Shown: positions 1 to 56,780 of the stretch, piece after piece
Position numbering within the stretch: position 1 is the first letter of the stretch
Layout of the letters: the number at the start of each line of letters is the position of its first letter
Made by a program: the position numbers and the translations under genes
The notes under the pieces: generated by a model
What the model was told of the DNA's origin: nothing
Seen by the model: only the letters and a program-made list of their open reading frames with translations
The model's database searches: none
Assembly (NCBI GenBank): GCA_946535985.1
Contig: CAMNDY010000003.1
Location: forward strand, 1-64,000
Length of the DNA stretch: 64,000 nucleotides
Reading direction: 5' to 3'
Source of the DNA: an uncultured Treponema sp.
Lineage (GTDB): Bacteria; Spirochaetota; Spirochaetia; Treponematales; Treponemataceae

Positions 1-255
1 GAATCTGTTCTTATGCAGCATCCTGCTGTTGTTGAATGTGCTGTTACTGCAGCTCCGGACCCTGTTCGTGGTCAGGTAGTAAAGGCAACAATTGTTCTTG
101 CAAAAGGCTACACACCAAGTGATGAGCTTGTAAAAGACATTCAAAACTTTGTAAAGAAAACAACAGCACCTTATAAATATCCTCGTATCGTAGACTTTAA
201 GGATAGTCTTCCAAAGACAATTTCCGGAAAGATTATGCGAAAGGACATTAAGTAG
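1..255 (+). CDS. Acyl-CoA/acetyl-CoA synthetase, C-terminal fragment (AMP-forming)
   Basis: This is the last 84 codons of a gene that starts before the window; the frame is open from base 1 and stops at TAG 253-255. The residues match the mobile C-terminal lid domain of adenylate-forming (ANL) enzymes: a VVECAV segment, [10 protein letters not shown], and the closing [14 protein letters not shown], whose GKIMR lysine is the one that catalyses acyl-adenylate formation in this family. Family knowledge says these enzymes activate a carboxylate with ATP and load it on CoA. The substrate cannot be told from this fragment; the MACS/acetyl-CoA synthetase-like branch fits best. A cluster of palindromic repeats follows the stop directly. 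Confidence 0.8.
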
Positions 256-376
256 AGATTGTCGGGTCAAGCCCGACAATGACAATGTTTCGTCATATTC
301 GGGTTCAAGCCCGACAATGACAGTGTTTCATCATCTTCGGTATTGTGTCATCCTCGGGCTTGACCCGGGGATCTCT
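256..376. repeat. Three copies of a GGGTCAAGCCC hairpin repeat
   Basis: Three related dyads lie in tandem. The first is ATTGTCGGG-TCAAG-CCCGACAAT (258-280). The second is TTCGGGTTCAAGCCCGACAATGAC (about 297-321). The third is in opposite orientation, CCTCGGGCTTGACCCGGGGATC (about 351-372). Each copy is followed or preceded by GTCAT/ATGAC. They sit between the convergent ends of the synthetase and esterase genes, so they could act as bidirectional terminators, but they lack clean T-tracts. The same hairpin occurs at 45202-45224 and 55604-55672. Confidence 0.8.
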
Positions 377-1978
377 TTATTTTAAATACTCATACATATA
401 CCCAAAAGGATCTTCTACCATACCACAGCTATCGCCAAGTTCCATTAAAAGGCCGCCGCTTTCGTAAGAATCTTTCCATTCAGGAAGTGGATTTCCTTTT
501 GTGTCATTTCCGTTAGGGTTACCGTATTTTACAAAATTGAGCCAGTAGCTGCTCATAATTTCTTCAAGTTCATAATCACGGTCATTGTAATTTTTGCTGC
601 GGGGTACATTTTTGTAGGCATAAATTACTTCGCCAAAATGATTTGTTCCAATTTCTCCATTTTCGCGCGAAAAATAATATTCATAAACTGGACGTCTCTG
701 CGAAACTAGTGTTTTGGTCCAGCAGTCGTGAGGATAGGTAAAACATACAGCAGAAAAAGCATCTACATAAAGTTTTTTAAGCTGCTTGTTTTTCTTACTG
801 CCATATTTTTGTAAAAAATCATCTGTGTGATTTTTGAAACTTGGCTCTAACAAAGCATGAATATTATTTTTATTAACCTTTGTAAAAAATGCAAATCCAA
901 AACCTTCACGCTTATTAAAGCCGTTTAATAGGGCCTGCTCATGATTAAGACCTTTTGCATATATTTCATATGGAGTTTCCGGCAAAGCATAGCCGTCTAC
1001 GGTCATTGAATTATTTGCATATTTTGTTTTTATAAGTTTAGAGGCGGGAAGGGATCTTAACTGTAAAATATCGGAACATTTAAATTCTTTTTTAATATTT
1101 TCTCCCATCTCCAAAGCTTCTTCCATAGTCCGGAATGTATGAGGAGGATTTTTTTGAATTACACTGGAGCTTTCGCCAATTGCCCTTACAAAATATCCTT
1201 TTGTAAGAGGAGAAGCACACAAAGCATTTACAGAAGAAGAACCTGCCGATTCTCCCGCGATTGTTACGTTTGAAGGGTCTCCATCAAAAGCAGCAATATT
1301 ATTGTGAACCCATTCAAGCGCCTTTATCTGGTCTAAAAGCCCGTAGTTGCCGGTACTTCCATGTTCAGACTCTAAAGCCAGTTCTTTATCTGCAAAATAT
1401 CCAAAAATCCCGGTTCTGTAGGCTATATTTACTACAATAATTCCGTTTTTAGAAAGATTTTCACCGTCATAGTTCTGATGCCAGCTTTGACCGCTCATCA
1501 AAGATCCGCCGTGTACATAAACCAGAACAGGCCATCCGCCTTGAGGGGCTTTTTTTGCAGGCTTCCATACATTCAAATAAAGACAATCTTCGCTCATTGG
1601 GCCTTTATAAGTTCTGTCATTTTTTGAATGTGTATAAAGATTCATAAGAAAATTAAAAAATCTGCCATTTTCTTTTTGCATTGCCATTGGAGCAAAGTGA
1701 TCTGCTTCTAAAACGCCATTCCAGGGAATAACAGCCTGGGGCTCTTTCCAGCGCAATTCGCCAAGAGGAGGGGCCGCAAAGGGGATTCCTGCATAAATTT
1801 CTACAGTGCCTTCTTTGTTATAAATACCTCTGACGTCACCGCCTGTAACAGTGATAATGTCTGTACGCAGCTGAGCTTTGAGACCTGTGGGGTTTGTTTT
1901 TTCTTCTGTTGTTGCGCAGGATGAAAATAATAATGCAAAAAATAAAACAGAAATATAAAGAGTTTTAAGCTTCTTCAC
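377..1978 (-). CDS. Type B carboxylesterase, lipoprotein
   Basis: A 533-residue alpha/beta-hydrolase of the cholinesterase/p-nitrobenzyl esterase type. A lipoprotein signal runs from residue 1 with lipobox LFSSC (lipidated Cys about 21), so the enzyme should be membrane-anchored on the periplasmic or outer side. Family motifs are in order: EDCLYLNVW (about 130), HGGS oxyanion region (about 155), nucleophile elbow GESAG (Ser about 243), and the catalytic His in TNHFGEVIY near the C-terminus. Such enzymes hydrolyse ester bonds; in a gut or rumen treponeme, deacylation of plant polysaccharide is a reasonable guess but not shown. The start lies 1 bp after the stop of the upstream chemotaxis receptor, so the two are probably co-transcribed. 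Confidence 0.85.
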   Translation of the reverse strand: MKKLKTLYISVLFFALLFSSCATTEEKTNPTGLKAQLRTDIITVTGGDVRGIYNKEGTVEIYAGIPFAAPPLGELRWKEPQAVIPWNGVLEADHFAPMAMQKENGRFFNFLMNLYTHSKNDRTYKGPMSEDCLYLNVWKPAKKAPQGGWPVLVYVHGGSLMSGQSWHQNYDGENLSKNGIIVVNIAYRTGIFGYFADKELALESEHGSTGNYGLLDQIKALEWVHNNIAAFDGDPSNVTIAGESAGSSSVNALCASPLTKGYFVRAIGESSSVIQKNPPHTFRTMEEALEMGENIKKEFKCSDILQLRSLPASKLIKTKYANNSMTVDGYALPETPYEIYAKGLNHEQALLNGFNKREGFGFAFFTKVNKNNIHALLEPSFKNHTDDFLQKYGSKKNKQLKKLYVDAFSAVCFTYPHDCWTKTLVSQRRPVYEYYFSRENGEIGTNHFGEVIYAYKNVPRSKNYNDRDYELEEIMSSYWLNFVKYGNPNGNDTKGNPLPEWKDSYESGGLLMELGDSCGMVEDPFGYMYEYLK

Positions 1979-45156: not shown

Positions 45157-45201
45157 TCGGTTTTCCCCTAATAAAATATCATAAAATTATATAAAAGATA
45201 G

Positions 45202-45282
45202 ATTATCGGGTCAAGCCCGATAATGACACTCTCTTTTGTCCTATAATGACACTCTCTTTTGTCCTATAATGACACTCTCTTT
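45202..45282. repeat. GGGTCAAGCCC hairpin plus 23-bp tandem repeat
   Basis: The hairpin ATTATCGGG-TCAAG-CCCGATAAT (45202-45224) is a variant of the repeat at 258-280 with a G-C to A-T pair change. Its right end continues into a 23-bp unit, ATAATGACACTCTCTTTTGTCCT, repeated 2.7 times up to the rpoD stop codon. It separates rpoD from the Zn-ribbon gene. Confidence 0.8.
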
Positions 45283-47139
45283 TTACTCCATGTAATCCCT
45301 GAGCCCGTTTGCACGTCTTGGGTGGCGGAGTCGGCGCAAAGCTTTTGCTTCAATCTGACGGATACGTTCACGGGTTACATCAAAGTAAAGACCAACCTCT
45401 TCGAGTGTAAGAGAATATCCGTCTTCAAGACCAAAGCGCATCTTAAGAACTTCCTGTTCACGTGGTGGTAAAGTTCCCAAAACTGTTCGCAGCTGCTCCT
45501 GAAGCAAGGTAAAGGCAGTTTGTGTTGCAGGATTTTCAACTTCCTTATCTTCAATGAAGTCTCCGAGCAATGAATCTTCTTCCTCACCAATTGGAGTTTC
45601 AAGAGAAATTGGTTCGCGTGCAACATTCTTAACCTGTTTAACACGGCTTAATGGCCAGCCAAGCTGCTGGGCAATTTCATCATCAGTTGGTTCACGGCCA
45701 AGCTTCTGCATAAGCTGGCGGCTTTCGCGAACAACCTTATTAATCTGTTCAATCATGTGAACCGGTACACGGATTGTTCTTGCCTGGTCAGAAATAGAAC
45801 GTGTAATTGCCTGACGAATCCACCAGGTTGCGTATGTAGAAAACTTAAAGCCCTTACGGTATTCAAATTTTTCTACGGCTTTGATAAGACCAATATTTCC
45901 TTCCTGAACAAGGTCAAAGAAATGAAGACCTCTGTTTGTATATTTCTTTGCAATGGAAACAACAAGACGAAGGTTTGCGTTGATAAGCTTATTCTTCGCC
46001 TTTTCCATCATTACACGGCCACTTTCGATTTCCTGGGCCATTTTAATGATATCTTCTACATTGTTTTCGTAATCGTATTCGAGCTTGTGAAGCTTTCTGT
46101 CAATTTTTTGAATCTGAGTGTAAATCTCGCGGATTTCATCGGCACTCATATTCAATTCTTCTTCGAGTTTTACAGCCTGTGAACGGATTGAGATTTTTTT
46201 ACCAAGACGACGAAGTTCAGAAGGATTAGAAATGCGCAATTCCTTCATCTTCTTTTCCTGTTTCTGATGGTATTCTTCAATTTTTATAGTAGCTTCGCGA
46301 TATTTTTGAGTAAACTTGTCGAGTTCTTCTGTCTGAATGTCAATTTTTTGAAGTTCAGGAATAATCTTTTTGCGAAGGGCCACAAGCTGATCATTATCAA
46401 AAATAGCGCTGGACTGCTCTGCTTCGAAAAGCTGCTTTTTAAGGGCAATATACTGCTTCATTTCCTGAAGAACAGGTTTTATGTGTTCACCATAAGCACT
46501 CTTAAGGCGGCGTTTATCGGCCATTTCTTCATTGAGTTCCTTGCGGGTCTTTCCAGGTTCGTGAATATCAATTCGAGTAAAGGCTTTAAGTGCAATGTTG
46601 TAGAATTCCGGAATCATAATTCCAGAGCCTTTGATTACATCTTTAATGATATTGTTTCCGTCTTCCATCTGTTTAGAAAGCTCAACTTCCTGGTCTGCAG
46701 TAAGAAGATTTTCTTTACCAATTTCTCTTAAATAAAGACGGATTGGATCATCTACGCTTGAATCCTTGTCGCTGTTTACAAGACGAGATTTCTGGCTGTC
46801 TAATTTTTCAAGGTTTTCAATTTCCTTAATTTCATCATTTGCGCCTTCTTCATCATCATCTTCCTGTTCAAGAATGATATCATCGTCATCATCTTCGGTT
46901 ACATCAATATCATCCTGTGCAGGCATATCAGGTTCATCAGAAATTAAATCGGGTTCTACAAGTTGTATATTTTTTTCATTAAGAAACTTAAGAACAGTTT
47001 CCATTTGTGGAGAGTTTACAAAATCCTGACCAAGAATATCTGTAGCCTCGTCCCAAGTTACAAAAGGTTTATCTTTTGCAAAATCCAGAAGTTTTTGTAC
47101 AGCAGGGTTAATGCTTGTTTCTTCCATTTGATTTTTCAC
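45283..47139 (-). CDS. rpoD: RNA polymerase primary sigma factor
   Basis: 618 residues. Region 1.1-like N-terminus (about 1-60), then a very acidic stretch ([21 protein letters not shown]), region 1.2 ([31 protein letters not shown]), a long non-conserved insertion, region 2 ([61 protein letters not shown], which recognises the -10), region 3, and region 4 ([15 protein letters not shown] ... [21 protein letters not shown], -35 binding). GTG 47139 or ATG 47127 could be the start; the upstream AGGTG suits ATG slightly better. It follows dnaG without a gap, the classic macromolecular-synthesis order. Confidence 0.97.
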
Positions 47140-54235: not shown

Positions 54236-55597
54236 ATGAAGATAAGAATTGATAAAGTTTTGAAAGATTTTAATTCTCATTTTGAAGACGCAGGCTTTAA
54301 GGCATATCTTGTCGGCGGTGCTGTTCGCGATATTTTTCTTCATAAAAAACCACATGATTATGATGTTGCAACAAATTCTACTCCCCAGGATGTCATGAAG
54401 CTTTTTAAGGTTGTTATTCCAACCGGCTTTGAACATGGCACAGTTACAGTTCATTTTAGGGGGCTCGAAATTGAAGTTACAACCTTCAGAACCGAAAGCG
54501 GATATTCAGACGGAAGACATCCGGACTCAGTAAATTACGCAGCAACAATTGAAGAAGACCTTGCCCGCCGTGATTTTACAATAAATGCAATTGCTGCCGA
54601 TTTGAAAAACGGAAAGATAGTTGATCCTTTTGGCGGCAGAAGAGATATTAAAAAAAAGATAATCCGCACAGTTGGAAAAGCTCATGACCGCTTTATGGAA
54701 GACGGATTACGGCCTGTAAGATGTGTGCGTTTTGCATGTAAGTTGGGATTTAGTATAGAAAAGTGCACATATTCAGAATTATTCGATAGTGATGTACAGA
54801 ATAAAATCAGGTTCATTTCTATTGAGCGCTTCCGCGATGAGTTTGATAAAATCCTTGCCTGCCCAAAACCTTCGCTAGGATTAAAGCTTTTAGAAGAAAG
54901 CGGAATGCTTGCAATATTTATTCCGGAGTTTCTTGCGGGGCGTGGATGCATTCAGTCTGACCAGCGAGGCTTTCACGATTTTGATGTATTGGATCATCTT
55001 TTTTATGCCTGCGACGGTGCACCTCTTGAAAAAGCAAATGTTCGCCTTGCAGCCCTCTTTCATGATATTGGAAAGCCAGCTGCTAAAAAGATTATAGACG
55101 AAAACATCACATTTTATAATCACGAAAAAATTGGTGCCCAGCTTACAAAGCAGATTCTTACAAGGCTAAAATATCCTAATGCAGTAATTGATGATGTCTG
55201 CCATTTAATAGAGGAACATATGTTTAATTACGAATCAAACTGGACAGTTCCTGCAGTAAGACGTTTTATAATCCGCGTTGGACAAGAGCATCTTGAAGAT
55301 CTTTTTGATTTGCGTCTGGCCGATATGTACGGAATGCATAACCTGCCTGTTGAATATAAATACAGCGCCGCTATAAATCTTTTGGTTGAATTAAAAGACC
55401 GCATAGCTTTAGAGCTTGAAAAAAATAATGCCATGAGTCTTAAGGATCTTGCAATAAACGGCCGTGATTTAATTGATGCAGGCTTTGAACCTGGTAAAAA
55501 ACTTGGTATTATCCTCAATCATCTTTTAGATTGCGTAATTGAAGATCCGGGGATGAATACGAAGGAAAAGCTTTTGGAAGTGGCAAAGAACTATTAA
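54236..55597 (+). CDS. tRNA nucleotidyltransferase / poly(A) polymerase family protein with HD domain
   Basis: 453 residues. Class II nucleotidyltransferase core: YLVGGAVRDIFLHKKPHDYDVATNSTPQDV (about 27-56, with DxD metal ligands), TFRTESGYSDGRHP, DLARRDFTINAIAAD and DPFGGRRDI. The neck and body follow (RFMEDGLRPVRCVRFACKLGF). A C-terminal HD domain has ALFHDIGKPAAKK (about 275) and HLIEEH. Because the tRNAs in this window lack encoded CCA, CCA addition is the most likely role, although a poly(A) polymerase or A-only enzyme of a split pair cannot be excluded. It ends in the palindromic repeats before trpS. Confidence 0.9.
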   Translation: MKIRIDKVLKDFNSHFEDAGFKAYLVGGAVRDIFLHKKPHDYDVATNSTPQDVMKLFKVVIPTGFEHGTVTVHFRGLEIEVTTFRTESGYSDGRHPDSVNYAATIEEDLARRDFTINAIAADLKNGKIVDPFGGRRDIKKKIIRTVGKAHDRFMEDGLRPVRCVRFACKLGFSIEKCTYSELFDSDVQNKIRFISIERFRDEFDKILACPKPSLGLKLLEESGMLAIFIPEFLAGRGCIQSDQRGFHDFDVLDHLFYACDGAPLEKANVRLAALFHDIGKPAAKKIIDENITFYNHEKIGAQLTKQILTRLKYPNAVIDDVCHLIEEHMFNYESNWTVPAVRRFIIRVGQEHLEDLFDLRLADMYGMHNLPVEYKYSAAINLLVELKDRIALELEKNNAMSLKDLAINGRDLIDAGFEPGKKLGIILNHLLDCVIEDPGMNTKEKLLEVAKNY

Positions 55598-55603
55598 CCT
55601 TCT

Positions 55604-55672
55604 GTCATTGTCGGGCTTGACCCGACAATCTCATTAAAAAAAAAGATTCCCGGGTCAAGCCCGGGAATGACA
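55604..55672. repeat. Two GGGTCAAGCCC hairpin repeats
   Basis: ATTGTCGGG-CTTGA-CCCGACAAT (55607-55629) and ATTCCCGGG-TCAAG-CCCGGGAAT (55646-55668) are in opposite orientation around an A9-type tract. They fill the 82-bp gap between the convergent CCA-enzyme and trpS genes and could serve as terminators for both. Stem pairs differ between copies with both arms changed. Confidence 0.8.
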
Positions 55673-55679
55673 TAATCAT

Positions 55680-56780
55680 CTATATGAGCATATTCATAAC
55701 AGTACGCACTTCATTAAGTGTCTGAATACCAATCTCTCTGGCACGGTTAGCTCCGTCTAACAAAACCTTGCGGATATATTCAGGATCTTTTTCAAGACGG
55801 GCACGTTCTTCGCGTAAAGGTCTTAGTTTTTCGTTTAAGGCTACTGTAAGCTCATTCTTAAGGGCACCACCACCACCGTCTCCAATGCGGGCTGCAATTG
55901 CAGTTGGTTCTTCACCGGTACAAAGAGAAATGAGCATAAGAAGATTTGAAACTTCAGGACGATTTACAGGATCATAGGTAATATTGCGGTCCTGGTCGGT
56001 CTTAGCCTTTTTAATGAGCTTTGCAGTTTCGTCTTCTGTAGCGCTTAGCATAATTGCATTTCCGCGGCTCTTAGACATCTTCTGACTTCCATCCAATCCA
56101 AGAATCATTGGAGTTTTAGAAAGCAATGCCTGAGGCTCAGGGAATACAGGTTCTTTACCCATATCGGTACAGAACTTTTTGTTAAAGCGGCTGGCGATTG
56201 TACGGGTCATTTCAAGGTGTGGAAGCTGGTCTTTTCCTACAGGAACAATATTACCTTTGCAGAAAAGAATATCGCAGGCCTGATGTACAGGGTATGTATA
56301 CATTCCGGCATTTACGTTTTTAAGACCGGCAGATTCAATTTCTTCTTTTACAGTCGGATTGCGCGAAAGTTCGGCATTAGAAACAAGAGTGAGGAAAGGA
56401 ATCATAAGCTGGTTACATTCAGGAACATAGCTGTGAGGGTAAATGATTACATCCTGTTTGCTTGGGTCAATTCCTGCAGCAAGATAATCAATTACAAGTT
56501 GCTTTGTGTTCTGACTTATTTTATCAAAGGCATCGTGATCGGTAAGAACCTGGTAATCTGCAATAAGAATCATAGTAGGAACACCCATATTTGCCAGGCG
56601 CACACGATTCTGCAAAGAACCAAAATAGTGTCCGATATGCAAAAGTCCTGTTGGACGGTCTCCTGTAAGAACACGATATTTCTGCGGATTTTTAATAAGA
56701 TCCTCTTCGATTTTTTTACTGCGTTCCAGCGCAGCCTCAAAGCTTTTGTTTATGTCTGTATATTGAATTTCGTCTGCCAT
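55680..56780 (-). CDS. trpS: Tryptophan-tRNA ligase
   Basis: 366 residues. Class I synthetase that charges tRNA-Trp. HIGH motif in GDRPTGLLHIGHYFGSLQNRV (about 40-60), KMSKS in GLDGSQKMSKSRGNAIM (about 220). A 35-residue N-terminal helical extension (YTDINKSFEAALERSKKIEEDLIK) is longer than in E. coli. A consensus sigma-70 promoter lies upstream. Encoded alone, convergent with the CCA-enzyme gene. Confidence 0.96.
   Translation of the reverse strand: MADEIQYTDINKSFEAALERSKKIEEDLIKNPQKYRVLTGDRPTGLLHIGHYFGSLQNRVRLANMGVPTMILIADYQVLTDHDAFDKISQNTKQLVIDYLAAGIDPSKQDVIIYPHSYVPECNQLMIPFLTLVSNAELSRNPTVKEEIESAGLKNVNAGMYTYPVHQACDILFCKGNIVPVGKDQLPHLEMTRTIASRFNKKFCTDMGKEPVFPEPQALLSKTPMILGLDGSQKMSKSRGNAIMLSATEDETAKLIKKAKTDQDRNITYDPVNRPEVSNLLMLISLCTGEEPTAIAARIGDGGGGALKNELTVALNEKLRPLREERARLEKDPEYIRKVLLDGANRAREIGIQTLNEVRTVMNMLI

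Follow-up and report, generated by a model that had tools for sequence, protein, structure and literature searches.

CGTC-3-like REPs in a Treponema genome: inverted pairs with unlike arms, and sites filled in one species and empty in another

The short hairpins at three loci of the window (the whole 64,000-nt stretch of DNA analysed here) are, by their sequence, CGTC-tagged REPs resembling the published CGTC-3 family. We consider it likely (probability about 0.72) that these REPs are dispersed, non-autonomous mobile palindromes, which would have been duplicated by an enzyme other than a resident Y1/RAYT transposase and left by selection where they do least harm. What is new here relative to the published class is the record of filled and empty sites between species, together with the count of identical arms in inverted pairs and the range of copy number, 0 to about 280, inside a single genus.

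Unit structure and copy number

The host genome (G000) is a draft MAG of 2.78 Mb that is 86% complete. Its contigs matched Treponema-labelled MAG contigs with 73-86% identity over kilobases, and on this identity the host is assigned to Treponema. Read from the tag, the unit has the form TGTC-ATTnnCGGG-CTTGA-CCCGnnAAT-CT, that is, an unpaired tag, a covarying 9-bp stem, a 5-nt loop (CTTGA plus variants) and a short unpaired tail, mostly CT in the Treponema copies. Units occurred singly or as inverted pairs. The genome-wide count that the initial annotation had proposed gave 161 exact matches to the core GGGTCAAGCCC in the draft genome and 0 in the reversed control. A position-weight scan of 20-kb stretches totalling 0.83 Mb, the sample behind the host copy statistics below, detected 79 copies and 0 in reversed sequence, and the genome total was estimated at about 165-260 copies. 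The TGTC tag was nearly invariant at positions 0-3 (57 exact-core copies), and pair A4-T26 was found in 77/79 copies and T5-A25 in 78/79. At stem position 7/23 the 79 copies included 36 G-C, 32 C-G, 5 A-T and 1 T-A pairs, which bears out the earlier remark that stem bases are interchangeable with pairing retained. The core GGG-TCAAG-CCC had also been described as constant, and this did not hold: inner stems GTG/CAC, GCA/TGC and others, as well as other loops, exist in the host genome or the genus. A strand bias of G-T wobbles was tried as evidence for a role in RNA and dropped (18 vs 9, not significant by our reckoning).

The matches listed for an exact pattern of 23 fixed bases included MAGs of Treponema and other Spirochaetales, many from Rhizobiales and Rhodospirillales, and some scattered over other phyla; the alphaproteobacterial copies had a CCA-like tail (TGGATT on the other strand). 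With a broader pattern, copies per genome within the genus ranged from 0 to 281, many congeners having 0-1, and other families of the same order were at background level. Copies were most numerous in seven genomes of this genus, namely G000, G005, G019, G021, G001, G003 and G026.

Units in the window

The core 11-mer had 6 window matches at no more than one mismatch (0.25 expected), and all four stems reported in the initial annotation were located exactly as given, at 258-280, 45202-45224, 55607-55629 and 55646-55668. Its inventory was short by two units, both in locus 1 (Table 1). The GTCAT/ATGAC that it had seen beside the copies was indeed present, not as a flank but as the conserved unpaired tag of the element itself. 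Two of the three loci (1 and 3) lie between convergent genes, as claimed. The further claim that every locus directly follows a stop codon fails at locus 2, whose unit is 54 bp downstream of the rpoD-like stop, with the next gene 41 bp away.

Table 1 Features at the three loci of the window (for REP units, strand is that of the tag-to-tail reading)
Feature	Position	Strand	Remarks
CGTC-REP unit, stem type ATTGTC	254..284	-	Locus 1; tail abuts stop codon of AMP-binding enzyme gene
Degenerate CGTC-REP unit (GGTTCAAGCCC)	292..322	-	Locus 1; overlooked in the initial annotation
CGTC-REP unit, stem type ATCCTC, one T-G wobble	346..376	+	Opposite-strand GTCATCCTCGGG; last unit of locus 1 cluster
Carboxylesterase gene, convergent	377-1978		Adjoins locus 1 cluster
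Lone CGTC-REP unit, stem type ATTATC	45198..45228	-	Locus 2
Tandem repeat, 2.8 perfect copies of 23-bp unit ATAATGACACTCTCTTTTGTCCT	45220..45283	.	Includes REP end, next to rpoD
rpoD-like gene	45283-47139	-	Stop 54 bp from locus 2 REP
tRNA nucleotidyltransferase/polyA polymerase-like gene	54236..55597	+	Stop 5 bp before dimer
Dimer left half (tags outward), stem type ATTGTC	55603..55633	+	Locus 3
A-rich spacer of dimer	55634..55641	.	Locus 3
Dimer right half, stem type ATTCCC	55642..55672	-	Locus 3; minus-strand hairpin followed by CTTTTTTTTT, intrinsic-terminator-like
Class I tRNA synthetase (W/Y) gene	55680..56780	-	Converges on dimer; stop 7 bp beyond dimer

Folded as RNA, the plus strand of the locus 3 dimer was most stable as a single extended hairpin interrupted by small internal loops (-42.6 kcal/mol), compared with about -30 kcal/mol for the two hairpins folded separately. 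An Rfam scan of the window returned RNase P and tRNAs only and no REP-type family.

Comparison with known REP families

Searching the literature for the motif's sequence turned up unrelated matches only. The REP-type family suggested by the initial annotation has a published counterpart, the CGTC-tagged REP super-family of Di Nocera, De Gregorio and Rocco (2013; PMC3733652), who include Spirochaetes in their list of phyla and do not name Treponema in the text. These REPs have an unpaired CGTC, TGTC or CCTC tag, an 8-9 bp stem with complementary A and T at its first and second positions, a 4-5 nt loop and a tail that is mostly CCA; their inverted dimers mainly have the tags outward ('HH', head-head), and they have no associated transposase (PMC3733652). 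Since tag, stem, loop, dimers, placement, intragenic copies and lack of a transposase all match, the Treponema hairpins belong, as far as sequence can place them, to this already known class.

The closest likeness is to the CGTC-3 family, which shares the TGTC tag variant, a 9-bp stem starting A-T/T-A, a 5-nt loop, a short tail, tags-outward dimers, frequent heterodimers, location behind genes, some intragenic copies and the lack of a transposase, but the Treponema tail is mostly CT instead of CCA, and G000 has equal numbers of tags-inward and tags-outward pairs. RPE-4 and RPE-6 of Rickettsia (CGTC-4 and CGTC-1) are likewise CGTC-tagged palindromes able to sit in frame in protein genes, although host and family are different and the Treponema copies are mostly intergenic. 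Neisseria dRS3 (CGTC-1) has the same tag and an ATTCCC...GGGAAT palindrome core, but an 8-bp stem, a 4-nt loop and large clusters, as described in PMC3733652. The GTAG REPs/REPINs with RAYT are also short tagged palindromes in inverted pairs; here, however, the tag is TGTC and the copy-rich genomes have no RAYT.

Placement relative to genes

The sampled host clusters comprised 28 at tandem, 10 at convergent and 3 at divergent junctions, and 5 intragenic ones, some of which may be edge effects of the simple longest-ORF rule for calling genes, by which starts are approximate; two in-frame intragenic cases were confirmed by comparison with relatives. The position behind genes proposed earlier was confirmed, 31/41 intergenic clusters being at most 10 bp from a stop codon, and only 3/41 were at divergent junctions against about 16 expected under a per-bp null. 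For the near-stop class the per-bp null predicts 3.7 clusters, whereas a per-gap null already gives 21.4 (sd 3.2) of 41 because host gene junctions are short. The preference for stop codons is therefore real in G000, a moderate excess over the per-gap null, but smaller than it first appears. The near-stop count in G019 was 11 vs 8.9 (sd 2.0) under the per-gap null, which is not significant. A minority of copies were in 5' UTRs or in frame within genes.

TTTT followed the tail within 12 nt in 21/79 copies, and AAAA preceded the tag in 15/79. A general intrinsic-terminator function was rejected, the T-tract being wanting in most copies; for the minus strand of 55646-55668, a terminator is plausible from its hairpin and following bases.

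Filled and empty sites between species

The locus 3 dimer is missing from the same gene junction in G026, in which the two genes almost touch, and other, unrelated hairpins are found at that junction in G008 and G025. The dimer with its spacer had a 97% match at G019:C123; a near-identical 70-bp dimer stands at different places in two species. The grpE-dnaK junction is empty in G026 and G003, has different dimers in G000 and G019, and holds an unrelated palindrome in G008 and G015. At C13:33292, ahead of a start codon, G000 has a lone unit, G026 has a degraded one, and G019 and G008 have none; some copies stand between the start codon and a promoter-like box. Within genes, the DUF763 protein gene has an in-frame REP pair in G000 and G019 and none in G008. 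The HrpB-type helicase gene has a REP unit beside a second repeat family in G000, the second repeat only in G008, and, judged from match coordinates, neither repeat in G015. Presence and absence at orthologous sites, by which a non-autonomous mobile element would be recognised, were thus found for this family, with gain and loss sometimes indistinguishable because the species are only about 70-93% identical at these genes. No consistent target-site duplication was seen, the same divergence being too great to fix the junctions.

Other repeats use some of the same places. The DUF763 linker (L240-L269) carries unrelated, varying in-frame inserts across species of the genus and appears to be a repeat-tolerant hotspot. 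The second dispersed palindrome family (TTCGACAGGCTCAGGGACC-type) was seen in L270 (the HrpB-type helicase), L271, L322, L330 and L239, also in frame within genes and at gene junctions shared with REPs.

Search for a mobilising enzyme

The initial annotation had pointed to a RAYT as the partner to look for. No PF01797 (Y1 transposase) match was found in the host or in any other of the seven copy-richest genomes, all draft MAGs, in which an enzyme could be missed for that reason (the host being 86% complete). RAYT-like genes do occur in copy-poor species of the genus, and none of the Y1/RAYT loci of relatives was flanked by the CGTC-REP palindrome; they had other palindromes or none. In the sample, REPs stood on either side of three genes; one of these encodes a DnaK, and by sequence none of the three is a transposase. 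A RAYT was rejected as the mobiliser, being absent from the copy-rich genomes and unlinked in the relatives. Separately, a 2.3-Mb relative in the same order (G056) had 28 PF01797 matches, an apparent expansion of Y1 transposases.

Inverted pairs

Stem positions 6-8 were identical between the two arms in 0/77 inverted dimers from five species, where about 25 were expected by shuffling (5.4, 1.8, 10.9, 0.4 and 6.8 per species), although the 77 dimers are not independent events, some of them, above all in G001, being related copies. It has been suggested that unlike arms escape SbcCD-type removal, and the absence of identical arms fits this suggestion. Tags-out and tags-in pairs numbered 23/3 in G001, 16/0 in G005, 5/0 in G021, 7/3 in G019 and 10/10 in G000. 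The lengths of tags-out dimers were quantised within species (69/64, 76/67, 83/69), and the dimer spacers in G000 varied in sequence among copies. Single units numbered 22-25 per sample. A partner rule for the arms (A vs G at position 22, in 70/77 dimers) was rejected, as it is not significant once the arms must differ. The strict avoidance of identical arms gives a simple regularity, open to test, with a bearing on how stable inverted repeats are.

Explanations for the spread of the REPs

We infer that the REPs are non-autonomous mobile palindromes whose duplication would depend on an enzyme provided in trans or lost in the meantime, and not on a resident Y1/RAYT transposase. Selection would leave them where they are least harmful, at 3' ends and in linkers, identical-arm pairs would be lost through the instability of long perfect palindromes, and individual copies could secondarily serve as 3'-end hairpins, a few of them as terminators. 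The alternative is that they are not mobile DNA but have a function at 3' ends, as terminators or by stabilising mRNA, for which selection maintains them there. This would agree with the excess of copies at convergent and tandem 3' ends and their scarcity between divergent genes, with the covarying stems, with the terminator-like minus strand of 55646-55668 and with the unrelated hairpins at the locus 3 junction in G008 and G025. We regard this as unlikely, as only 21/79 copies have TTTT after the tail, against 15/79 with AAAA ahead of the tag, occupancy of the sites is patchy among close species, many genomes of the genus hold 0-1 copies, and some copies are in frame inside genes or separate a start codon from a promoter-like box. 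Mobilisation by a RAYT, as for GTAG REPs (REPtron type), is far less probable still and largely refuted: the general anatomy of tagged palindromes in inverted pairs is the same and other members of the genus do have RAYT-like genes, but the tag is TGTC and not GTAG, PF01797 was missing from all seven copy-richest genomes, the RAYT loci of relatives have other palindromes or none, and Di Nocera et al. also report no association (PMC3733652).

Compatible with spread as mobile palindromes is the idea that the inverted pair with unlike arms is the actual transposing unit, its two arms serving as distinct ends and the single units being decay products. The quantised tags-out lengths, the absence of identical-arm pairs and the near-identical dimer at different places in two species point this way, whereas the differing spacers in G000, the loss of significance of the partner rule once non-identity is imposed and the number of single units point away from it, and a stability filter accounts equally well for the non-identity; we hold it possible, with the odds somewhat against it. 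Rather doubtful is the stronger proposal that REP pairs are still duplicating in these Treponema through a non-Y1/RAYT enzyme, which would be RAYT-independent spread with the unlike-arm pair as the moving unit. Published work on CGTC-tagged REPs leaves the question of how they are mobilised, given that no transposase is associated; one genus with 0 to about 280 copies, differences between close species and no Y1 in the copy-rich genomes therefore offers a usable comparison set. Even if Treponema only adds a host to an established class, the finding corrects the assumption that a genome with REPs must have a RAYT.

Composite repeats in G001

The G001 samples L342-L359 (e.g. L345:10613-10756) contained composite repeats, about 100-380 bp long, whose 17-bp inverted ends read GGGG(A/C)TG(T/A)CCAATAAGT. 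No consistent target duplication was seen among 24 units. CGTC-REPs, from 1 to 4 of them, were enclosed in 22/24 composites, which were often flanked by A-runs and T-runs.
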